Of a stretch of 23,721 nt of DNA, positions 3,273-22,741 are shown one piece after another. This DNA comes from a virus. The stretch's first letter is position 1; each line of letters begins with the position of its first letter. Where the stretch lies: positions 1-23,721 of the IMG/VR virus record IMGVR_UViG_3300022592_000032, one strand, 5' to 3'. The notes under the pieces are model-generated. The model saw nothing but the letters and a program-made list of their open reading frames with translations. It did no database searches and was not told the DNA's origin. The translations under genes and the position numbers were made by a program.

Positions 3273-3618
3273 GCGCAAAGGCTCTGCTTTTGAGACAGGC
3301 ATTCTCAAATTCCTGCGTAGCAAAGGCTTAGCATCCGAAAGGTTACGCCTCGCAGGCAAGGACGACGAAGGTGACATCGTATGTATCGTTGCAGGTGCGC
3401 CGTATATCTTTGAGCTAAAGGCAACAGCCAAGATGGACCTGCCGCAGTTCTGGCGTGAGGCTACCACTGAGGCATTTAACTATGCCAAAGCGCGTAACTT
3501 AGATGTTACGCCACCAGCCTATGTCATCGTCAAGCGCCGCATGGCGGGGCTAGACCAGTCGTGGGTTATTCAAGATTTGAACCAGTGGTTGAAGGTAACC
3601 GGTGGTATCGAAGCCTGA
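3256..3618 (+). CDS. Holliday-junction-resolvase-like PD-(D/E)XK endonuclease
   Basis: A 120-residue protein with the archaeal Hjc/phage resolvase pattern. E13 lies in the first helix (KGSAFETGILKFL), then comes RLRLAGKDDEGD with the catalytic D40, then FELKA with E53-x-K55, followed by a helix containing F-W-R-E-A. Together these form the ExnDxnExK site of the PD-(D/E)XK fold. It would cut branched DNA during recombination or before packaging. RBS AAGGAAGTCCG precedes the ATG. It overlaps the following primase gene by 17 nt. Assignment to resolvase rather than another small PD-(D/E)XK nuclease is probable, not certain. Confidence 0.8.
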   Translation: MSTYGKRKGSAFETGILKFLRSKGLASERLRLAGKDDEGDIVCIVAGAPYIFELKATAKMDLPQFWREATTEAFNYAKARNLDVTPPAYVIVKRRMAGLDQSWVIQDLNQWLKVTGGIEA

Positions 3619-3970
3619 CCTTGCTGCCGTGCTTGAGCATTACGGCATCAACGTATTGGACAGGCATGGTTGGGTGCCATGCAAGTGCGTTATCCATGAT
3701 GACACCATGGCTAGTGCAGCATATAACCTTGATAGTCAGGCATACAACTGCCTAGTCTGTCAGGTTCTCGGAGATGTATACACATTAGTGCAAGCTAAAG
3801 AAGGGCTAGATTTCAAAGATGCTAAACGAAAAGCAGAGAGCATTGCTCACGGACGCAGCAAGCAAATACGCCAGCAGTCTAACTCCACAGGCAGCCTCTT
3901 ACCTGGCGGCACGAGGCATAACACAGGAAGTCGCGCATACGTTCCAGCTTGGAAGCGTCGTGGAGCCTAG
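3602..3970 (+). CDS. DNA primase, zinc-finger (CHC2-type) subunit
   Basis: A 122-residue protein beginning with a DnaG-like zinc-binding domain. C29-V-I-H32 and C50-L-V-C53 form the C-x2-H / C-x2-C finger, followed by GDVYTLVQ and the helix EGLDFKDAKRKAES usual after CHC2 fingers. The tail (GSRAYVPAWKRRGA) is basic and ends naturally. The TOPRIM catalytic domain is not in this protein but in the next ORF, which starts 152 nt before this one ends and in another frame (+1). The GTG start has GAAGG 6 nt upstream. It is probably the template-recognition part of a two-polypeptide primase. A +1 ribosomal frameshift joining both ORFs is an alternative. Confidence 0.8.
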   Translation: MVSKPDLAAVLEHYGINVLDRHGWVPCKCVIHDDTMASAAYNLDSQAYNCLVCQVLGDVYTLVQAKEGLDFKDAKRKAESIAHGRSKQIRQQSNSTGSLLPGGTRHNTGSRAYVPAWKRRGA

Positions 3971-4454
3971 TGCTGGACATGAGCATGCCGTTAACAGATT
4001 ATCTATTCCGTACCTTACACCAGCCGGTGTTGTGGGAATTAAGTTCAGGAGCGTAGATGAGTCAACTCCAAAATACCTCTGGCCTACCGGTCAGAAGATT
4101 GGGCTATATAACGTACTTGATTTGCATAAGCACAGCGATACGATTGCCATTTGCGAGGGCGAGATTGACACTATTGTGGCATCGGGTATCGTGGGAATAC
4201 CTGCGGTTGGAGTTGCTGGAGTCAGCCAATGGAAACCGTGGTTTCCTAAACTCTTTGAATCGTATTCTCGCATCCTTATATTTGCGGATAACGACGTCAA
4301 AGAAGATGGAAGAAACCCTGGCCAAGAGCTGGCCAAGCGAATCAAAGAAGACTTGGACAAAGCGGAAATAGTCCACCTTCCCGACAATATGGACACCAAT
4401 GAGGTATACTTACAGTATGGCCCTGATTGGTTCACCGAGAGGATAGCGGCGTGA
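3819..4454 (+). CDS. DNA primase, TOPRIM catalytic subunit
   Basis: A 211-residue protein with a TOPRIM domain: I-C-E113-G-E115-x-D117 is the first acidic motif and F-A-D157-N-D159 the second, the Mg-binding DxD of DnaG-type primases. The N-terminal LTPQAASYLAARGI helix and PYLTPAGVVGIKFR strand match the region preceding TOPRIM in phage primases. It makes RNA primers, presumably with the zinc protein encoded just upstream in an overlapping frame. The start at 3819 is the first ATG after an in-frame TAG at 3807. Its Shine-Dalgarno is weak and distant, which suggests coupling or frameshifting. The stop overlaps the next GTG (GTGA). Confidence 0.85.
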   Translation: MLNEKQRALLTDAASKYASSLTPQAASYLAARGITQEVAHTFQLGSVVEPSAGHEHAVNRLSIPYLTPAGVVGIKFRSVDESTPKYLWPTGQKIGLYNVLDLHKHSDTIAICEGEIDTIVASGIVGIPAVGVAGVSQWKPWFPKLFESYSRILIFADNDVKEDGRNPGQELAKRIKEDLDKAEIVHLPDNMDTNEVYLQYGPDWFTERIAA

Positions 4455-5023
4455 CAACCATCGCAGCGATTCAAGGCCCTGACTGGGTAGTAGTCGGGGC
4501 TGATTCGCAATCCTCTGATACTGATGGCTTTGCTATCAACATACCCGGCGGTAAAGTATTTAAGAATAGCAACCTAGTCTTTGCCGGTGCTGGTGCGGTA
4601 CGAGGTATTAACCTGCTGCAACACGACTTCGTACCACCAGTGGTAAACACCAAAGACATTGATAAGTATGTCACTCGCCAGCTTATCCCTGCTATACGCC
4701 GCACTTTTGCCGAGGCAGGCTATGAAGTAAACAAGGGTGACTCATCAGTAGAGAATGACAACATCTGGATTGTCGTTGTCAAGGGTGAGGTATACCGCAT
4801 CGACGAGGATTACTCATGGGAGCGTACAGTTAACAACCTGTATGTCGCAGGCAGTGGCGAGCAGTTTGCTCTCGGCGCTATGGATGCGCTGACAGGTGGC
4901 TTGCTAGTGGATGACTTAGCCAAAGCCAAGAAGATTGTTACCAAGGCTATCCAAACAGCCAGTAAGTACGATACATCCACCGGTGGCAAGATAACCATTA
5001 CGGTAGTGCAGGAGAACAAATGA
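4451..5023 (+). CDS. Proteasome beta / HslV-like Ntn hydrolase
   Basis: The GTG at 4451 (GAGAGGA upstream, GTGA overlap with the primase) gives M-T-T-I-A-A-I. After methionine removal Thr1 is N-terminal, as in HslV, with no propeptide. Numbering from Thr1, D17 lies in VVVGADSQ (HslV VIAGDGQ) and K34 in IPGGKVF stands for Lys33. A-G-S134-G-E matches the Ser129-Gly-Gly region, and Y-D173-T-S-T176-G-G matches the proteasome Asp166-xx-Ser169-Gly-Gly element. The 189-residue mature length fits a single proteasome beta fold. These are the residues of a working threonine peptidase. No ATPase partner or alpha subunit is visible. It sits in the replication operon, so an early role such as degrading or processing a host or phage protein is plausible but inferred. 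Confidence 0.85.
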   Translation: MTTIAAIQGPDWVVVGADSQSSDTDGFAINIPGGKVFKNSNLVFAGAGAVRGINLLQHDFVPPVVNTKDIDKYVTRQLIPAIRRTFAEAGYEVNKGDSSVENDNIWIVVVKGEVYRIDEDYSWERTVNNLYVAGSGEQFALGAMDALTGGLLVDDLAKAKKIVTKAIQTASKYDTSTGGKITITVVQENK

Positions 5024-5400
5024 CACCGGAGATGTCAGACTTTGACTTAGACTTTTCGTATGGGCACGAGGGCGAGCAGCTCGTCAATGACATCCTCACT
5101 GGCGGGCTGACCGTAGAAGTTAAGCGCGATAGGCGCTGGGTGCAAACCGGTAACATCTACATTGAGACTGCCTTCTACTCACGGGCTACACACAACTGGG
5201 TGGAGTCAGGCTTGATGAAGACTAAAGCAGACCGCTGGGCATTCGTGCTTGAACAGCTGGTCATCATCGCCACCACCAATGATTTGAAGGAAGCTATTAA
5301 CCGTTACGGCAGACCCATCAGCAATGAAAAGGAACCTAACCCAAGCAAGGGATTCCTGATTACCGTTGATGACATTATGTCGGTGCAGCGTGGCCGCTGA
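5020..5400 (+). CDS. Putative PD-(D/E)XK-like phage protein, 126 aa
   Basis: The start overlaps the peptidase stop (ATGA). After an acidic start the protein has EGEQLVNDIL, then TVE33VK35RDRRW with an E-x-K, then TGNIYIE, and later WAFVLEQLVI. This order (Glu in a first helix, ExK strand, TGN-x-x-x-E) resembles a small group of restriction-endonuclease-fold proteins in actinophages, but the first acidic residue of the site is less certain. It may be a nuclease or an inactive relative. It overlaps the next gene by 11 nt. Confidence 0.65.
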   Translation: MTPEMSDFDLDFSYGHEGEQLVNDILTGGLTVEVKRDRRWVQTGNIYIETAFYSRATHNWVESGLMKTKADRWAFVLEQLVIIATTNDLKEAINRYGRPISNEKEPNPSKGFLITVDDIMSVQRGR

Positions 5401-5572
5401 CCCAACGTTTATCTACGGCCCCAAGGATGGGGCGCAGGTGCCGCCTGTATTCTGGGCGCTAGATACTATTGAGTTGGTACAACACATGGAGAATGGCACT
5501 GACCTGATATACTTTTACCAGCTCGATGAAGAGACAAAGAATTATATATACCAAGGGCAAGCGGAAGGATAG
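5390..5572 (+). CDS. Small hypothetical protein, 60 aa
   Basis: The GTG at 5390 (MAADPTFIYGPKDG and on) is chosen because it overlaps the previous stop only slightly. An in-frame ATG at 5366 would give a 35-nt overlap with a less natural N-terminus. The protein is acidic with aromatic strands (DLIYFYQLDEETKNYIYQG). No family is recognised. It is followed after 4 nt by the DUF1599-like gene. Confidence 0.55.
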   Translation: MAADPTFIYGPKDGAQVPPVFWALDTIELVQHMENGTDLIYFYQLDEETKNYIYQGQAEG

Positions 5573-5576
5573 GGAT

Positions 5577-5972
5577 ATGAGTGAGTCAAGAGGACATCAA
5601 TTTAGCTATAACGATGTTGATACAGAACGGCTTTTTAATTCAGAGCGTAGACTTACAGAGACAGCAGATTACAATTACCCTGCCTCCCACAAGAAATTCT
5701 GTGCCGACGTCTGGGACATAATGGATGAGCTGGGTAACTTGCTTATTACTAAGCAGTTGGACTACGGCCCCGGCAATATCAACAACGCACACGGTGGTCC
5801 CATCAACGGCTTGATGGTACGCATTGGCGATAAGTTTGAGCGACTCAAAAACCTGCTCAAGAAGCAACAGATTAAGCCACAACACGAACCAATTGAAGAT
5901 TCATTCAAAGACTTAGCTAACTACGGAGTCATCGGCTTGATGATTCAGAGAGGCCTGTGGCCAAAGGAATGA
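5577..5972 (+). CDS. DUF1599 / Nmad1-like protein
   Basis: The 131-residue protein has the signature of the nucleotide-modification-associated domain 1 family (DUF1599): LLITKQLDYGPGNI, then GLMVRIGDKFERLKNLL, then EPIEDSFKDLANYGVIGLM. The family is widespread in phages and has been linked by genome context to DNA base modification or nucleotide metabolism; its activity is not established. RBS GGAAGGATAGGGAT precedes the ATG at 5577. An in-frame ATG at 5526 would overlap the upstream gene and lengthen the protein by a basic peptide, so it is not preferred. Confidence 0.8.
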   Translation: MSESRGHQFSYNDVDTERLFNSERRLTETADYNYPASHKKFCADVWDIMDELGNLLITKQLDYGPGNINNAHGGPINGLMVRIGDKFERLKNLLKKQQIKPQHEPIEDSFKDLANYGVIGLMIQRGLWPKE

Positions 5973-17702: not shown

Positions 17703-18026
17703 ATGGCAGAGCCACTTCCTGTACCAACACCAGCCCCTACAACGAATGTTGACATTGCTAATGCAATGGTTCAGGGCAATCAAGTTTTTGTTAAGCACAA
17801 CCCACAGCTTGCAGCTGCTGGCATATTGTCTGGCAACCCAGACACCATGAATACACTTGCTGCTAGCTCGCATATGGTTAATTATGCCAAGGCAATCGAT
17901 GACCATATTGCCACATACAATTCAAGCGTATGGTTTTCTAACATTTTCAAAGATGCAAAAGACGTTTCTGCAGCCCTTATCAAGAACGCAGCGGAAATCG
18001 CTGCGGAAAAGGGGCTTAATCAATGA
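17703..18026 (+). CDS. Hypothetical structural-module protein, 107 aa
   Basis: After a Pro-rich start (MAEPLPVPTPAPTT) the protein is helical (DIANAMVQGNQVFVKHNPQL, later SAALIKNAAEIAAEKG). It is coupled to the giant gene downstream by an ATGA overlap, implying production together with it. No family is recognised. Confidence 0.7.
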   Translation: MAEPLPVPTPAPTTNVDIANAMVQGNQVFVKHNPQLAAAGILSGNPDTMNTLAASSHMVNYAKAIDDHIATYNSSVWFSNIFKDAKDVSAALIKNAAEIAAEKGLNQ

Positions 18027-21000
18027 GTGACACTCAGGTAGCTCCAGCCGCTCCAGCCACACCTTCTTCAGGTGGTGGATTCTTAGGCTTTATCAAGAAT
18101 ATTCCTAGCGATATCGCTAAGGGTGTATCTGATATTCCTGTAGTTGGTAAGGCTCTCGGCACTGCTATGTCATGGGCTGGCAAGCCTTTGCAGGAAATTC
18201 AAAAAGATTACAAGTTTATTCACAGCCTTTACGTTGACCATGGCGTTGGCGGCATGTTGCTTGGTACAGCTGGCGTTCTTGCCGGTGGTGCTATTGGCGC
18301 TCTTGGTGGACCAGCGGGTATTGCTCTTGGTGCTGACATTGGCGGCGCTTTAAGCCGTAACATTCTTGGCCGCGTTGTACCTAACTTTCAGGATTCATTT
18401 AACAAGTCTAATGACCCGAATTACTTGGTGTCATTTGGACGCGATTTTGCGCATGGACTAGCAGCTATTCCTGGACTCGGCACACTACGCAATACAAACA
18501 CTGGCTTTGGCCAAGTTGTTTCAGGTATTGCAGATGCTTCATTTGACTTTGAGGGAGACCCCGTTGCTGCTGGCAGCAAGATGGCAGGAGCTATCAAGCG
18601 TGGAGATAACCTAGCTGTTGTCAAGCAAACCGACGAAGCTGGAAACCTTGTTCTTAATGCAAAGGGCCAGCCTATAACAAAGCTTGACGATGTAACAGGA
18701 AAGCCTATTGCTCATGCAACGCTTCCATTTGCTTCTTCGGGTGGCGCTGTTTCTAACTTTCTTCTCTCTAACTCATCACGGATTATCACAGCCGACCAAG
18801 TAGACCAGGTGCTTGCTAATCCGCTCATGGCTGCCAAAGTGCGCGCTATTGATGACATGGTTGATAAAGCAAAGAATGACCCAACCATTGCAGCTGGTTA
18901 CATTCATACCAATTATGGTATCCCTATGGGCTGGTCAGCAGCATTGAGCAAAGCCCTTTCAACTGCTACTACTCGAGATGAAGCAGTGCAGACTATTAAA
19001 CAAGCTTTGTACTCCAAGGAATTGGCAGATAGCGCCAATACTGCTGTTGGTGAATTGCGCCTACCATCCTTGACATACGGCAAGATGCTTAGCCAGAAGT
19101 ACGGCATTGACCGCATTCGCATGAGCAAGAATGCAAGCAACTATAATGACCAGGTTAACCTTCTCTTGCCTCGCAAGAGTGCTGTTATGGAACCTGCTGT
19201 CAACCCAGATGGTTCTCCTGTGCTTGATGAAACAGGCAATCAGGTAATGAATCCTAAGACTGTTACCAAGGTTGACCCAAATACCGGCGTAGAAACTCAA
19301 GAACAACTTTTTAAGCTCAATAAGCCTGCGCTATTTTCCAAGCCTGGCAGCGGAGCAATAATGAACGCCCTTGCTGGCAAGGTTCGTACATTTACCGGAC
19401 AGCGTGCTTTGTCTTTTGACACAAAAGCTAACGCTTTGTCTTCCAAAGAATTTGACCCAGCTGACCCAAATGCGTCCAGAACGGCAATGGATTTCACTTA
19501 CTACTCCATGCCATACCGCGTAGCTCTTGAGCATGCAACTAAGATGATTACAGCTACTGATGATGGTGCGCGTATCGACCAGATGCACGTCCTTCAGCAG
19601 GAAGTACTTAAAAACTTTGGCGTAGCCAAGGCTCAAGCCGCCTCAGTATTTGGTCAACTTGAGAGCGCTTCTCGTGGCAGCGCCTTTGACAAGGGTGTTT
19701 ATGCCGTCAACGACGGACGCCTTATTGGCTCAACTGAAATGAAGCCTGAGTACAGCGATACGCCTAAAGAATTGGCTATCGTCGAAGGCCAACGTTACAA
19801 GGGTTCCATGCTTGACCTTAGAGACATTCGTCAAGTCATGCGCAGTGCTAAAGCCTACGGCGCTTTGTACAACCCAGTAGACGACTTTTTCACACACTAT
19901 ACAAATGCTATTTTTGCACCATTGGCACTGCTATCTCCAGCCTTTGGTCTGCGCGTATCTTCCGGTGAAGCCTTGCATCAAATCATGCGTAAGGGTCTGC
20001 CCAGCTATCTAAGCAATGTCCTGGCTGCAAGCGTAGCCAATATGTCGGATAAGTACCGTTTGTACCACATGGATAAGATTGCTCAGACTCTCACCGAGAC
20101 TGATAAAAATGCCATTGAGGCCGAGCAGGCAACTGGTGTAGCTAAGCCAATTACAACAAACGAAGTCACCAAAGAGCTTGATGAGCGCAACCGTACTGTT
20201 CACGGCACCTTCAAGAATCTTGATGATTCTTTAACTAGCAAGCAATCATGGAACAACGCAGCCAACGCTGCTCGTAATGCTCGCTTTAATATCATGCCAC
20301 TGGGACTACTTGCTAATAAGTTCCGCGAGTCCAACCTTGTGCCATATTTTGTCAAGGACAAAATCAACGCCATGGACCGCTATTCAGCTATCTACGGCAA
20401 TAGAATGCCACAGGCTGGCGTAAGCGCAGCTCACGCAGCTTCTGAAGACTTGGTTGCAAAAGATAACATTAACCTTTTCGTCAAGAAGCATGGACATGGC
20501 ACTGTGCCTGGACAGGAGCTTGCTGGCTTGTCCCAGCTAGATAATAGCTTCCACTCCACATATGCCAAGAATGTCAATATGGCAGCAGCTGATTTGGCTC
20601 AACGTGACATTGCCCGCGATTACATGAACCGCATGAAGTCACCAGAATTCAAGGCGCTATCTCCAGATGAGCAATTTGCCAGCTTGGTAGATGCTCAAGC
20701 AGCTCGCATCAAGAATCCTAATATGTATCAGGATTACCGCAAATCTATGGATGGCTACACAAAAGCCGTTCCAGAGTCATTTGCTAAGAACCAGGTAGAC
20801 TATCTACAAGGTTTGGTATACGGTACTGGCCGCAAAGTTAACGTTGATTTGGTCGACAAGATTGCCAAGGGTCAGCGAGTAACCGAGCAGGAGTTGCGCA
20901 AGCTTCCTCAGACAGCCCTTCCTATTCAGGTGCTTGGCCGTCAGACAATGCCTACTATTGGCGATTCTCTACGCCGTGTTGAGCAAATGGGTTACCGCAA

Positions 21001-22741
21001 GTTTGTTACCCCGGTCATGGACTATGTATCTCGTCAGCCTTTGTTTGCTGACTTCTTTACTCGTCGCTTAATTGCTAACCAGCCTTTGATTGACATGGGC
21101 TTGCTGAGCGAAGACGAAGCTGTTCGCATGACTGCAACACAAGCTACCCGTGAGATGATTCCGACCATCCACAGCCCTGCTATCCGTAGCCAGTTTGCTG
21201 TATTGCACCGTAACTTGCTTCCATTCTTCTTTGCTCAAGAGCAGGCTATGCGTCGTACTGGCCGCTTGGTAATGACTAACCCACAAGCATTCCGTGACTT
21301 CCAGATTATCCAGCAGGGTCTAAACAACCCAGGCTTTGTACACACTGATGCCAATGGCCAGAAGTACATTGTCTACCCTGGCGGTATTGGAGAAGCTGGT
21401 AACGCTATTGCCCGTGGCCTAAACGCCCTTGGTTTGAAGCAATTCACAGGCTTGCCAACATCTATAACTGGTAATACTGCGTCGCTTTTGACAGTCCTTC
21501 CAGAAGTAAAGATGCCTGGCACAAGCCCATTTGTCAACTTTGCAATGACTGAGCTATCCAAGAAATTCCCATGGATGGACAAGGCAGTCAATGTTGCTTC
21601 CGGTGGTTATCCATCACAAAACTGGATTGATACGTTTATTCCTAACTCAACCATGCGCGATTTGTTCAATGCCATGAATATGGATGACCGCGAATCAACA
21701 GTCCTTAACTCAAAGCTGTCAGCCATTATGGCTGCCTACTACCATGGTGATTTGCCAGAGAATTACACCTCTCTGCCACCTTACCAACAACAAGATATCT
21801 TGACTAAGATTGAGCATAATGCTCAGTCTAACCTTCTTATCAAGGGCTTGTTCTCGTTCTTCCTGCCATTGGCACCAACGGTTAGCAACGACTACTACAC
21901 CAAAGATTTGCAAACTTTCCGCTCTGAGTACCTCAATATGCTCAAAGAAAAGGACCCAAGCACAGGTGCTACATACACAGCCGCTGCTGCGCTTAACAAG
22001 TTCTTGCAAGAAACTGGTTCAGCAGACCGTCCAAACCGAGCCATATCTTATACCGTTGCTCATAGCATAAATGAGACTGGTGGAGCATATGCCCCATTAG
22101 CAGATTCTACGCTTTCATGGATTAATAACAATCAATCTTTGCTCAACAACCCTAACTATTCAACAGCTGCGCCTTACCTTATCCCGCAGGCTGCAGACAG
22201 CAAGGATGCACTAGCGGTTGAAAATAAGCTAATCATTAATCACTTCCGTGCAAAGACTACCTCACGCGATTTCTTGAATGCGCTGTATGTTAAGCAAGGC
22301 TGGCAGGACTTGGACAATGCTTATACCGCTTATCAGGCAGATGTTAAAAACTTGCGGGCATCTGGTGACAAGAACGGCATGTATCAGGCTGGACAGCAAT
22401 GGAAAGCTATTACAGACCAGTATGGCCAGAGCAACCCAATCTGGTATGCAGACTACACAAACCCAACTCGCACAGAGATGGCAAAGAACGCTGTAAGCCA
22501 GTTCCTCACTATGCAGGAAAAGGGCTTGCTGGGTAGCTCAACACAGGGTCAAAAGATTTCCGAAATCCTAGATAACTACAAGGCTTATCATCAGGACTTA
22601 ATTGCAAATACTGTTGATGGCAAGAAGTTGCCAGGATACACACAGGCTCGTGACTCTTGGTACACCTATATGGATAACCTAGCAGCTGCAGACCCACAAT
22701 TGTCAAATGTCATAACAAGCGTATTTAGAAGGGTTGTATAA
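18023..22741 (+). CDS. Very large putative internal virion / injection protein, 1572 aa
   Basis: The largest gene of the window. Residues 74-110 form a Gly/Ala-rich hydrophobic stretch (GVGGMLLGTAGVLAGGAIGA and on) like glycine-zipper membrane-inserting segments; another hydrophobic stretch lies near residues 630-650 (NAIFAPLALLSPAFGLRVSS). The remainder is helical with no recognised catalytic motif; no transglycosylase, peptidase or polymerase signature was seen. Size, position after portal and composition suggest an internal core/ejection protein of a podovirus-like virion; a tape-measure protein is less likely because tail genes and long heptad repeats are absent. The start overlaps the previous stop (ATGA), with AAAGGGG upstream. 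The stop overlaps the next ATG (TAATG). Confidence 0.65.
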   Translation: MSDTQVAPAAPATPSSGGGFLGFIKNIPSDIAKGVSDIPVVGKALGTAMSWAGKPLQEIQKDYKFIHSLYVDHGVGGMLLGTAGVLAGGAIGALGGPAGIALGADIGGALSRNILGRVVPNFQDSFNKSNDPNYLVSFGRDFAHGLAAIPGLGTLRNTNTGFGQVVSGIADASFDFEGDPVAAGSKMAGAIKRGDNLAVVKQTDEAGNLVLNAKGQPITKLDDVTGKPIAHATLPFASSGGAVSNFLLSNSSRIITADQVDQVLANPLMAAKVRAIDDMVDKAKNDPTIAAGYIHTNYGIPMGWSAALSKALSTATTRDEAVQTIKQALYSKELADSANTAVGELRLPSLTYGKMLSQKYGIDRIRMSKNASNYNDQVNLLLPRKSAVMEPAVNPDGSPVLDETGNQVMNPKTVTKVDPNTGVETQEQLFKLNKPALFSKPGSGAIMNALAGKVRTFTGQRALSFDTKANALSSKEFDPADPNASRTAMDFTYYSMPYRVALEHATKMITATDDGARIDQMHVLQQEVLKNFGVAKAQAASVFGQLESASRGSAFDKGVYAVNDGRLIGSTEMKPEYSDTPKELAIVEGQRYKGSMLDLRDIRQVMRSAKAYGALYNPVDDFFTHYTNAIFAPLALLSPAFGLRVSSGEALHQIMRKGLPSYLSNVLAASVANMSDKYRLYHMDKIAQTLTETDKNAIEAEQATGVAKPITTNEVTKELDERNRTVHGTFKNLDDSLTSKQSWNNAANAARNARFNIMPLGLLANKFRESNLVPYFVKDKINAMDRYSAIYGNRMPQAGVSAAHAASEDLVAKDNINLFVKKHGHGTVPGQELAGLSQLDNSFHSTYAKNVNMAAADLAQRDIARDYMNRMKSPEFKALSPDEQFASLVDAQAARIKNPNMYQDYRKSMDGYTKAVPESFAKNQVDYLQGLVYGTGRKVNVDLVDKIAKGQRVTEQELRKLPQTALPIQVLGRQTMPTIGDSLRRVEQMGYRKFVTPVMDYVSRQPLFADFFTRRLIANQPLIDMGLLSEDEAVRMTATQATREMIPTIHSPAIRSQFAVLHRNLLPFFFAQEQAMRRTGRLVMTNPQAFRDFQIIQQGLNNPGFVHTDANGQKYIVYPGGIGEAGNAIARGLNALGLKQFTGLPTSITGNTASLLTVLPEVKMPGTSPFVNFAMTELSKKFPWMDKAVNVASGGYPSQNWIDTFIPNSTMRDLFNAMNMDDRESTVLNSKLSAIMAAYYHGDLPENYTSLPPYQQQDILTKIEHNAQSNLLIKGLFSFFLPLAPTVSNDYYTKDLQTFRSEYLNMLKEKDPSTGATYTAAAALNKFLQETGSADRPNRAISYTVAHSINETGGAYAPLADSTLSWINNNQSLLNNPNYSTAAPYLIPQAADSKDALAVENKLIINHFRAKTTSRDFLNALYVKQGWQDLDNAYTAYQADVKNLRASGDKNGMYQAGQQWKAITDQYGQSNPIWYADYTNPTRTEMAKNAVSQFLTMQEKGLLGSSTQGQKISEILDNYKAYHQDLIANTVDGKKLPGYTQARDSWYTYMDNLAAADPQLSNVITSVFRRVV

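Follow-up and report, generated by a model that had tools for sequence, protein, structure and literature searches.

The locus and its reading frame

The window, that is, the whole stretch of 23,721 nucleotides of virus record IMGVR_UViG_3300022592_000032 that was analysed, contains a gene for a putative peptidase directly behind the two primase genes (Table 1). The order of genes is strongly kept: exonuclease, DnaB-like helicase, RusA-like protein, primase zinc finger, TOPRIM, protease, small ORF, DUF1599, metallophosphoesterase and sigma factor. This conserved order and the Pfam and PHROG matches of the neighbors agree with the first-pass annotation, which had placed the protease inside a replication operon. 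The primase stop is overlapped by the start codon of the protease, and the protease stop by the start of the next gene, a phrog_13596 member that is translationally coupled to the protease and whose pelagiphage relatives adjoin DNA polymerase. The two primase genes themselves overlap by about 150 nucleotides in different frames; their PHROG matches both span the overlap, and the arrangement is kept in relatives. In the virion module, a protein of 1572 residues has no clear family match, and phage FlowerPower has a 1635-residue protein in the same place.

Table 1. Features of the peptidase locus. Residues are numbered as in the mature protein (T1 after Met); counts out of 64 refer to diverse relatives.
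Feature	Position	Strand	Remarks
Primase CHC2 zinc-finger subunit	3602..3970	+	PF01807, phrog_360
Primase TOPRIM subunit	3819..4454	+	PF13362, phrog_849; stop overlaps protease start; anchor of the either/or test
Predicted Thr1 Ntn-hydrolase (proteasome/HslV-like peptidase)	4451..5023	+	190 aa with Met, GTG start
Thr1 codon, N-terminal nucleophile after predicted Met removal	4454..4456	+	182/183 relatives M-T-T, one M-S-T
Catalytic Asp17 codon	4502..4504	+	64/64
Catalytic Lys34 codon (Lys33 of proteasome)	4553..4555	+	63/64
Oxyanion-hole Gly47 codon	4592..4594	+	64/64
S134-G135 codons (Ser129-Gly130 of proteasome)	4853..4858	+	S 62/64 and T 2; G 64/64
D173-x-x-T-G-G codons (Asp166/Ser169 of proteasome)	4970..4987	+	D 61/64; T 60/64 and S 4
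Conserved gene phrog_13596	5020..5400	+	start overlaps protease stop; in some relatives with either peptidase
Small conserved ORF	5366..5572	+	downstream border of the variable slot
DUF1599 protein	5526..5972	+	PF07659; downstream border of the slot
1572-aa protein of the virion module	18023-22741
Methyltransferase insertions in the slot of related phages	L139:4633-6585, L184:2782-4677, L013:1028-2037, L176:4630-5289

The translated product begins with M-T-T-I. A longer reading from a TTG codon at 4427 is formally possible. In the relatives, the codon before TTI is GTG, TTG, CTG or ATG, and the codons further upstream vary and are often stops, while M-T-T is kept; the start was therefore placed at 4451. 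This placement across relatives leaves the protein with no propeptide, as had been claimed. Relatives without Thr1 had been named at the outset as evidence that would speak against a peptidase of this type; of the 183 viral relatives, 182 start with M-T-T and one with M-S-T. The dN/dS value of the gene against its relatives is 0.04-0.13, by which measure the gene is under purifying selection. A chance ORF is excluded by this value together with the matches to Pfam PF00227 and PHROG 1040.

Active site, fold and classification

The GTG start and every residue named in the first-pass annotation (T1, D17, K34, the Ser-Gly pair and the Asp-x-x-Thr-Gly-Gly motif) were found where that annotation had them. 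In 64 diverse sequences the first column holds 63 Thr and one Ser. Judged by these residues, the active site is complete rather than dead.

The protein matches Pfam PF00227 (Proteasome) with E=1.5e-6 and 28.5 bits, against a gathering cut-off of 22.4, and PHROG 1040, "peptidase HslV family", with E=2e-29 over residues 1-188. With a profile built from 64 diverse relatives, the best of the solved structures are BPH (9e-11) and HslV (3e-10). The structure prediction that had been proposed as a check gave an AlphaFold model with pLDDT 91.8 and pTM 0.87, in which the Ntn fold is present. In Foldseek searches with this model BPH stands on top (TM 0.78-0.80), and 20S beta subunits come next together with HslV; the viral models include a phage-encoded protein bearing the name HslV, at TM 0.94. 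The PF00227 score, the Ntn alpha-beta-beta-alpha fold and the residues Thr1/Asp17/Lys33/Gly47 place the protein in the proteasome-like Ntn superfamily. Sequence and model together assign the product of ORF 4451-5023 to the Thr1 Ntn hydrolases of the proteasome/HslV superfamily, with the fold and catalytic centre first attributed to it.

It is important to compare the protein with the better known members of this superfamily. The fold and catalytic residues are common to HslV. However, the window protease scores 18.3 bits against the HslV equivalog cut-off of 157.75, and HslU was not found, with zero AAA_2 matches in 12 records. The 20S beta subunits are also distant: the archaeal beta equivalog gives 35.6 bits against a cut-off of 224, the propeptide is absent, and a single Ntn gene occurs per contig. 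The earlier remark that there is no ATPase partner holds for the ClpX/HslU-type (AAA_2) unfoldase, which is absent from the 12 records, three of them complete phage genomes; classical AAA matches above the cut-off were given only by the two large actinophages.

The window has two WhiB genes and its host is therefore taken to be actinobacterial. Many actinobacteria possess a 20S proteasome, and the first-pass annotation had raised the idea that the phage subunit joins or poisons that of the host. Such a mimic or blocking subunit is extremely unlikely: the scores fall well short of the equivalog cut-offs for 20S beta and HslV, the closest fold is BPH and no 20S subunit, the active site appears intact and not dead, some phages with relatives of the protein have hosts that are not Actinobacteria, and in other phages a putative zincin takes the place of the protease (see below). 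The ideas involving the host proteasome are not supported.

The AAH and PPH groups of phages were defined in a large survey (Fuchs, Alva and Lupas 2021), with their function not given; the survey counts BPH, HslV, AAH, CPH and PPH as Group I proteasome homologues (PMC8665760). The window protein is likewise compact, lacks a propeptide and has Thr1/Asp17/Lys33/Gly47, and BPH is its best match in both profile and fold. Its length of 190 residues, compared with about 140 for PPH, speaks against a typical PPH. The label AAH was considered and dropped, because the cellular AAH-like proteins of rhizobia and Streptomyces fall in another branch. PHROG 1040 comprises Ntn proteins of T5-like phages, jumbo phages and actinophages and matches along the whole window protein. 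However, its T5-like and jumbo-phage members branch with the rhizobial and Streptomyces proteins, while the window protein forms a lineage of its own with proteins of the actinophages DSL-LC01, Pitbull and Pumpernickel (support 87/85 and 90/87, which is moderate). The nearest annotated phage protein is the "ATP-dependent protease subunit" of DSL-LC01 (35%).

The search for the family across phages that had been suggested gave, besides the PHROG 1040 match, at least 517 relatives in IMG/VR; the search for cellular homologues in genome contigs yielded only one BPH-like deltaproteobacterial gene. Since phage members of the family were already known (PHROG 1040; AAH, PPH), the window protein represents a new lineage and not a new kind. 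The family gains a large, mostly freshwater actinophage lineage, and AAH from Actinobacteria-specific phages was not known in 2021, having been found in no such phage (PMC8665760). No reported function of any phage proteasome homologue was found in the literature.

Exchange of the peptidase with an unrelated putative zincin

The constancy of the protease gene was tested by anchoring the comparison on the TOPRIM primase rather than on the protease itself, in 107 distinct contigs. The slot after the primase is complete in 93 of these contigs and holds the Ntn protease in 49 and a putative zincin of about 110 residues with an HExxH motif in 44; the two never occur together and one of them is always present, although related sequences are not independent counts and the independent swaps are few. 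Five contigs without a peptidase all stop before the slot is complete. The primase tree contains five swaps between Ntn and zincin, at least four of them forced by supported branches. The four supported independent pairs give p=0.125 in a sign test, which with only four such pairs cannot get below 0.05. A second Ntn lineage, with 35-37% identity to the window's protein, fills the slot in four contigs whose primases share 73-85% identity with that of the window. No report of this either/or pattern was found in the open-licence literature. Some phages, with either type of peptidase, have gained C5 DNA methyltransferases and a SAM methyltransferase between TOPRIM and peptidase.

The alternative protein has HExxH in all 35 unique sequences. 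One member (L156) matches the Pfam putative metallopeptidase DUF6782 above the cut-off, and the protein is weakly similar to Peptidase_M78/IrrE. Its model has a pLDDT of 82, and the leading fold matches, Spartan, jannalysin, selecase, IrrE/PprI and Wss1, are weak (best E=0.035); a search of the PDB with the protein gave no significant sequence match. The HExxH motif is common to the zincins SprT/Spartan, Wss1, jannalysin/selecase and IrrE, but the alternative protein has just about 110 residues.

A sister clade, reached via a distant primase, provided 70 complete loci. The slot common to this clade follows DUF1599 or whichever gene replaces it; seven loci have the zincin there, three the Ntn gene and 60 neither. 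A first reading, that this clade is often without a peptidase, was wrong. Eight slot-empty contigs searched whole all carry an Ntn gene elsewhere, as compared with none of five slot-filled contigs (p=0.0008 by plain counting, with phylogeny ignored). In all seven slot-empty contigs inspected for its position, and likewise in ct2KA10, the portal gene is immediately followed by this gene. Across the two clades, the 31 contigs with lengths of 21-49 kb divide into 16 with the Ntn gene and 15 with the zincin, and no contig carries both or neither; some of these long contigs were obtained through one of the two peptidases and others through the primase, and since contigs are fragments the count of one covers the contig only, with a second copy possible outside it.

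In these sequences, the Ntn protease and the zincin are mutually exclusive at the level of both slot and contig. Part of this exclusivity could arise mechanically, by allelic exchange via the shared flanks. However, the occurrence of exactly one peptidase per contig at differing positions speaks against a simple one-place allele exchange as the only cause. The one-or-other rule does not hold in the broader family: Streptomyces phage FlowerPower, related by its terminase (44%), has neither the Ntn gene nor the zincin.

The replacement also bears on the chemistry of the protein. The two unrelated folds swap, one per genome and at differing positions, and share little beyond peptidase chemistry; peptide hydrolysis is therefore the likely selected activity. 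Ntn hydrolases are chemically diverse, and the fold might serve a non-hydrolytic reaction such as ligation; connectase, a proteasome homologue, acts as a ligase (PMC8665760). This is very unlikely for the window protein, because an HExxH protein as replacement fits hydrolysis and the protease model has two flanking helix pairs, which connectase does not. The repeated, exclusive replacement by an unrelated metallopeptidase would make proteolysis the selected property, which can be tested directly by a genetic swap.

Possible task of the peptidase

With moderate confidence we infer that the protein is an active stand-alone peptidase, equivalent to the zincin in one retained task, and that this task most likely belongs to replication or host takeover. 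The methionine aminopeptidase of the host should expose Thr1, and a propeptide would for this reason not be needed. The subunit probably assembles into a homo-oligomeric ring, by analogy with BPH and HslV, which would work without a phage-encoded unfoldase. The single proteolytic task that these phages appear to retain would be carried out in related phages by the unrelated zincin. It would most likely take place in the cytoplasm during the phase of DNA replication and host takeover and would remove either a host protein or a DNA-bound one. This timing is favored by the place of the gene after the primase and by the setting of its relatives, which in one plasmid and in unrelated phages adjoin ThyX, thymidylate synthase/DHFR/RNR, DNA ligase and dCMP deaminase. 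Early expression, suggested in the first-pass annotation, is plausible from the operon position, but the timing is not conserved, because sister-clade relatives have the gene beside the portal gene.

Due to these portal-side copies, which would also suit a virion role, a morphogenesis protease is retained as a rival. Such an enzyme would cut portal, scaffold or internal virion proteins, the zincin would do likewise in sister phages, and the place in the operon would be incidental. Head-maturation proteases are usually encoded near the portal, and the Ntn gene directly follows the portal in seven sister-clade genomes and ct2KA10. The location in the replication operon of the window clade does not agree with this role; nor do the relatives in other phages, which lie among nucleotide-metabolism genes rather than head genes, and FlowerPower, in which a long stretch separates the portal from the head protein gene downstream of it and the Ntn gene is absent. 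We regard a virion role as possible, though rather doubtful.

A branch of the replication or takeover reading has a host regulator or defence protein as the substrate, in the manner of ImmA/IrrE-type metallopeptidases. The weak similarity of the zincin to Peptidase_M78/IrrE and to IrrE/PprI structures is consistent with this, as are the DNA methyltransferases gained in the slot of some phages, a gain typical of a counter-defence site. A host-directed role has been proposed for the patchily distributed zincins of jumbo phages (PMC7824862). However, retention of one peptidase per genome suits a constant need better than variable arms-race cargo, a repressor-like neighbor is absent, and PADLOC gave zero matches for the Ntn protease or the zincin. 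A target of this type is therefore conceivable but on the whole unlikely.

The retained task could also be the clearing of proteins from replicating DNA by one protease, either proteasome-like or Spartan/Wss1-like, which we consider improbable. The hints are the primase and helicase neighbors, the weak but top-ranking match of the zincin fold to Spartan, and Lys/Arg-rich tails. According to one account, SPRTN and the proteasome both degrade DNA-protein crosslinks at replication forks in eukaryotes (PMC6375733); if true, the DNA-clearing reading would be a viral parallel to this eukaryotic pair. The tails, found at the C-terminus of several related phage Ntn proteins (L050:6576-6690, L403, L404), could bind nucleic acid. 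Outside the phages, a rhizobial Ntn homologue (L107:3001-3546) lies in a nitrogen-fixation cluster of a Sinorhizobium fredii plasmid, adjoining nifQ and Fe-S assembly genes.
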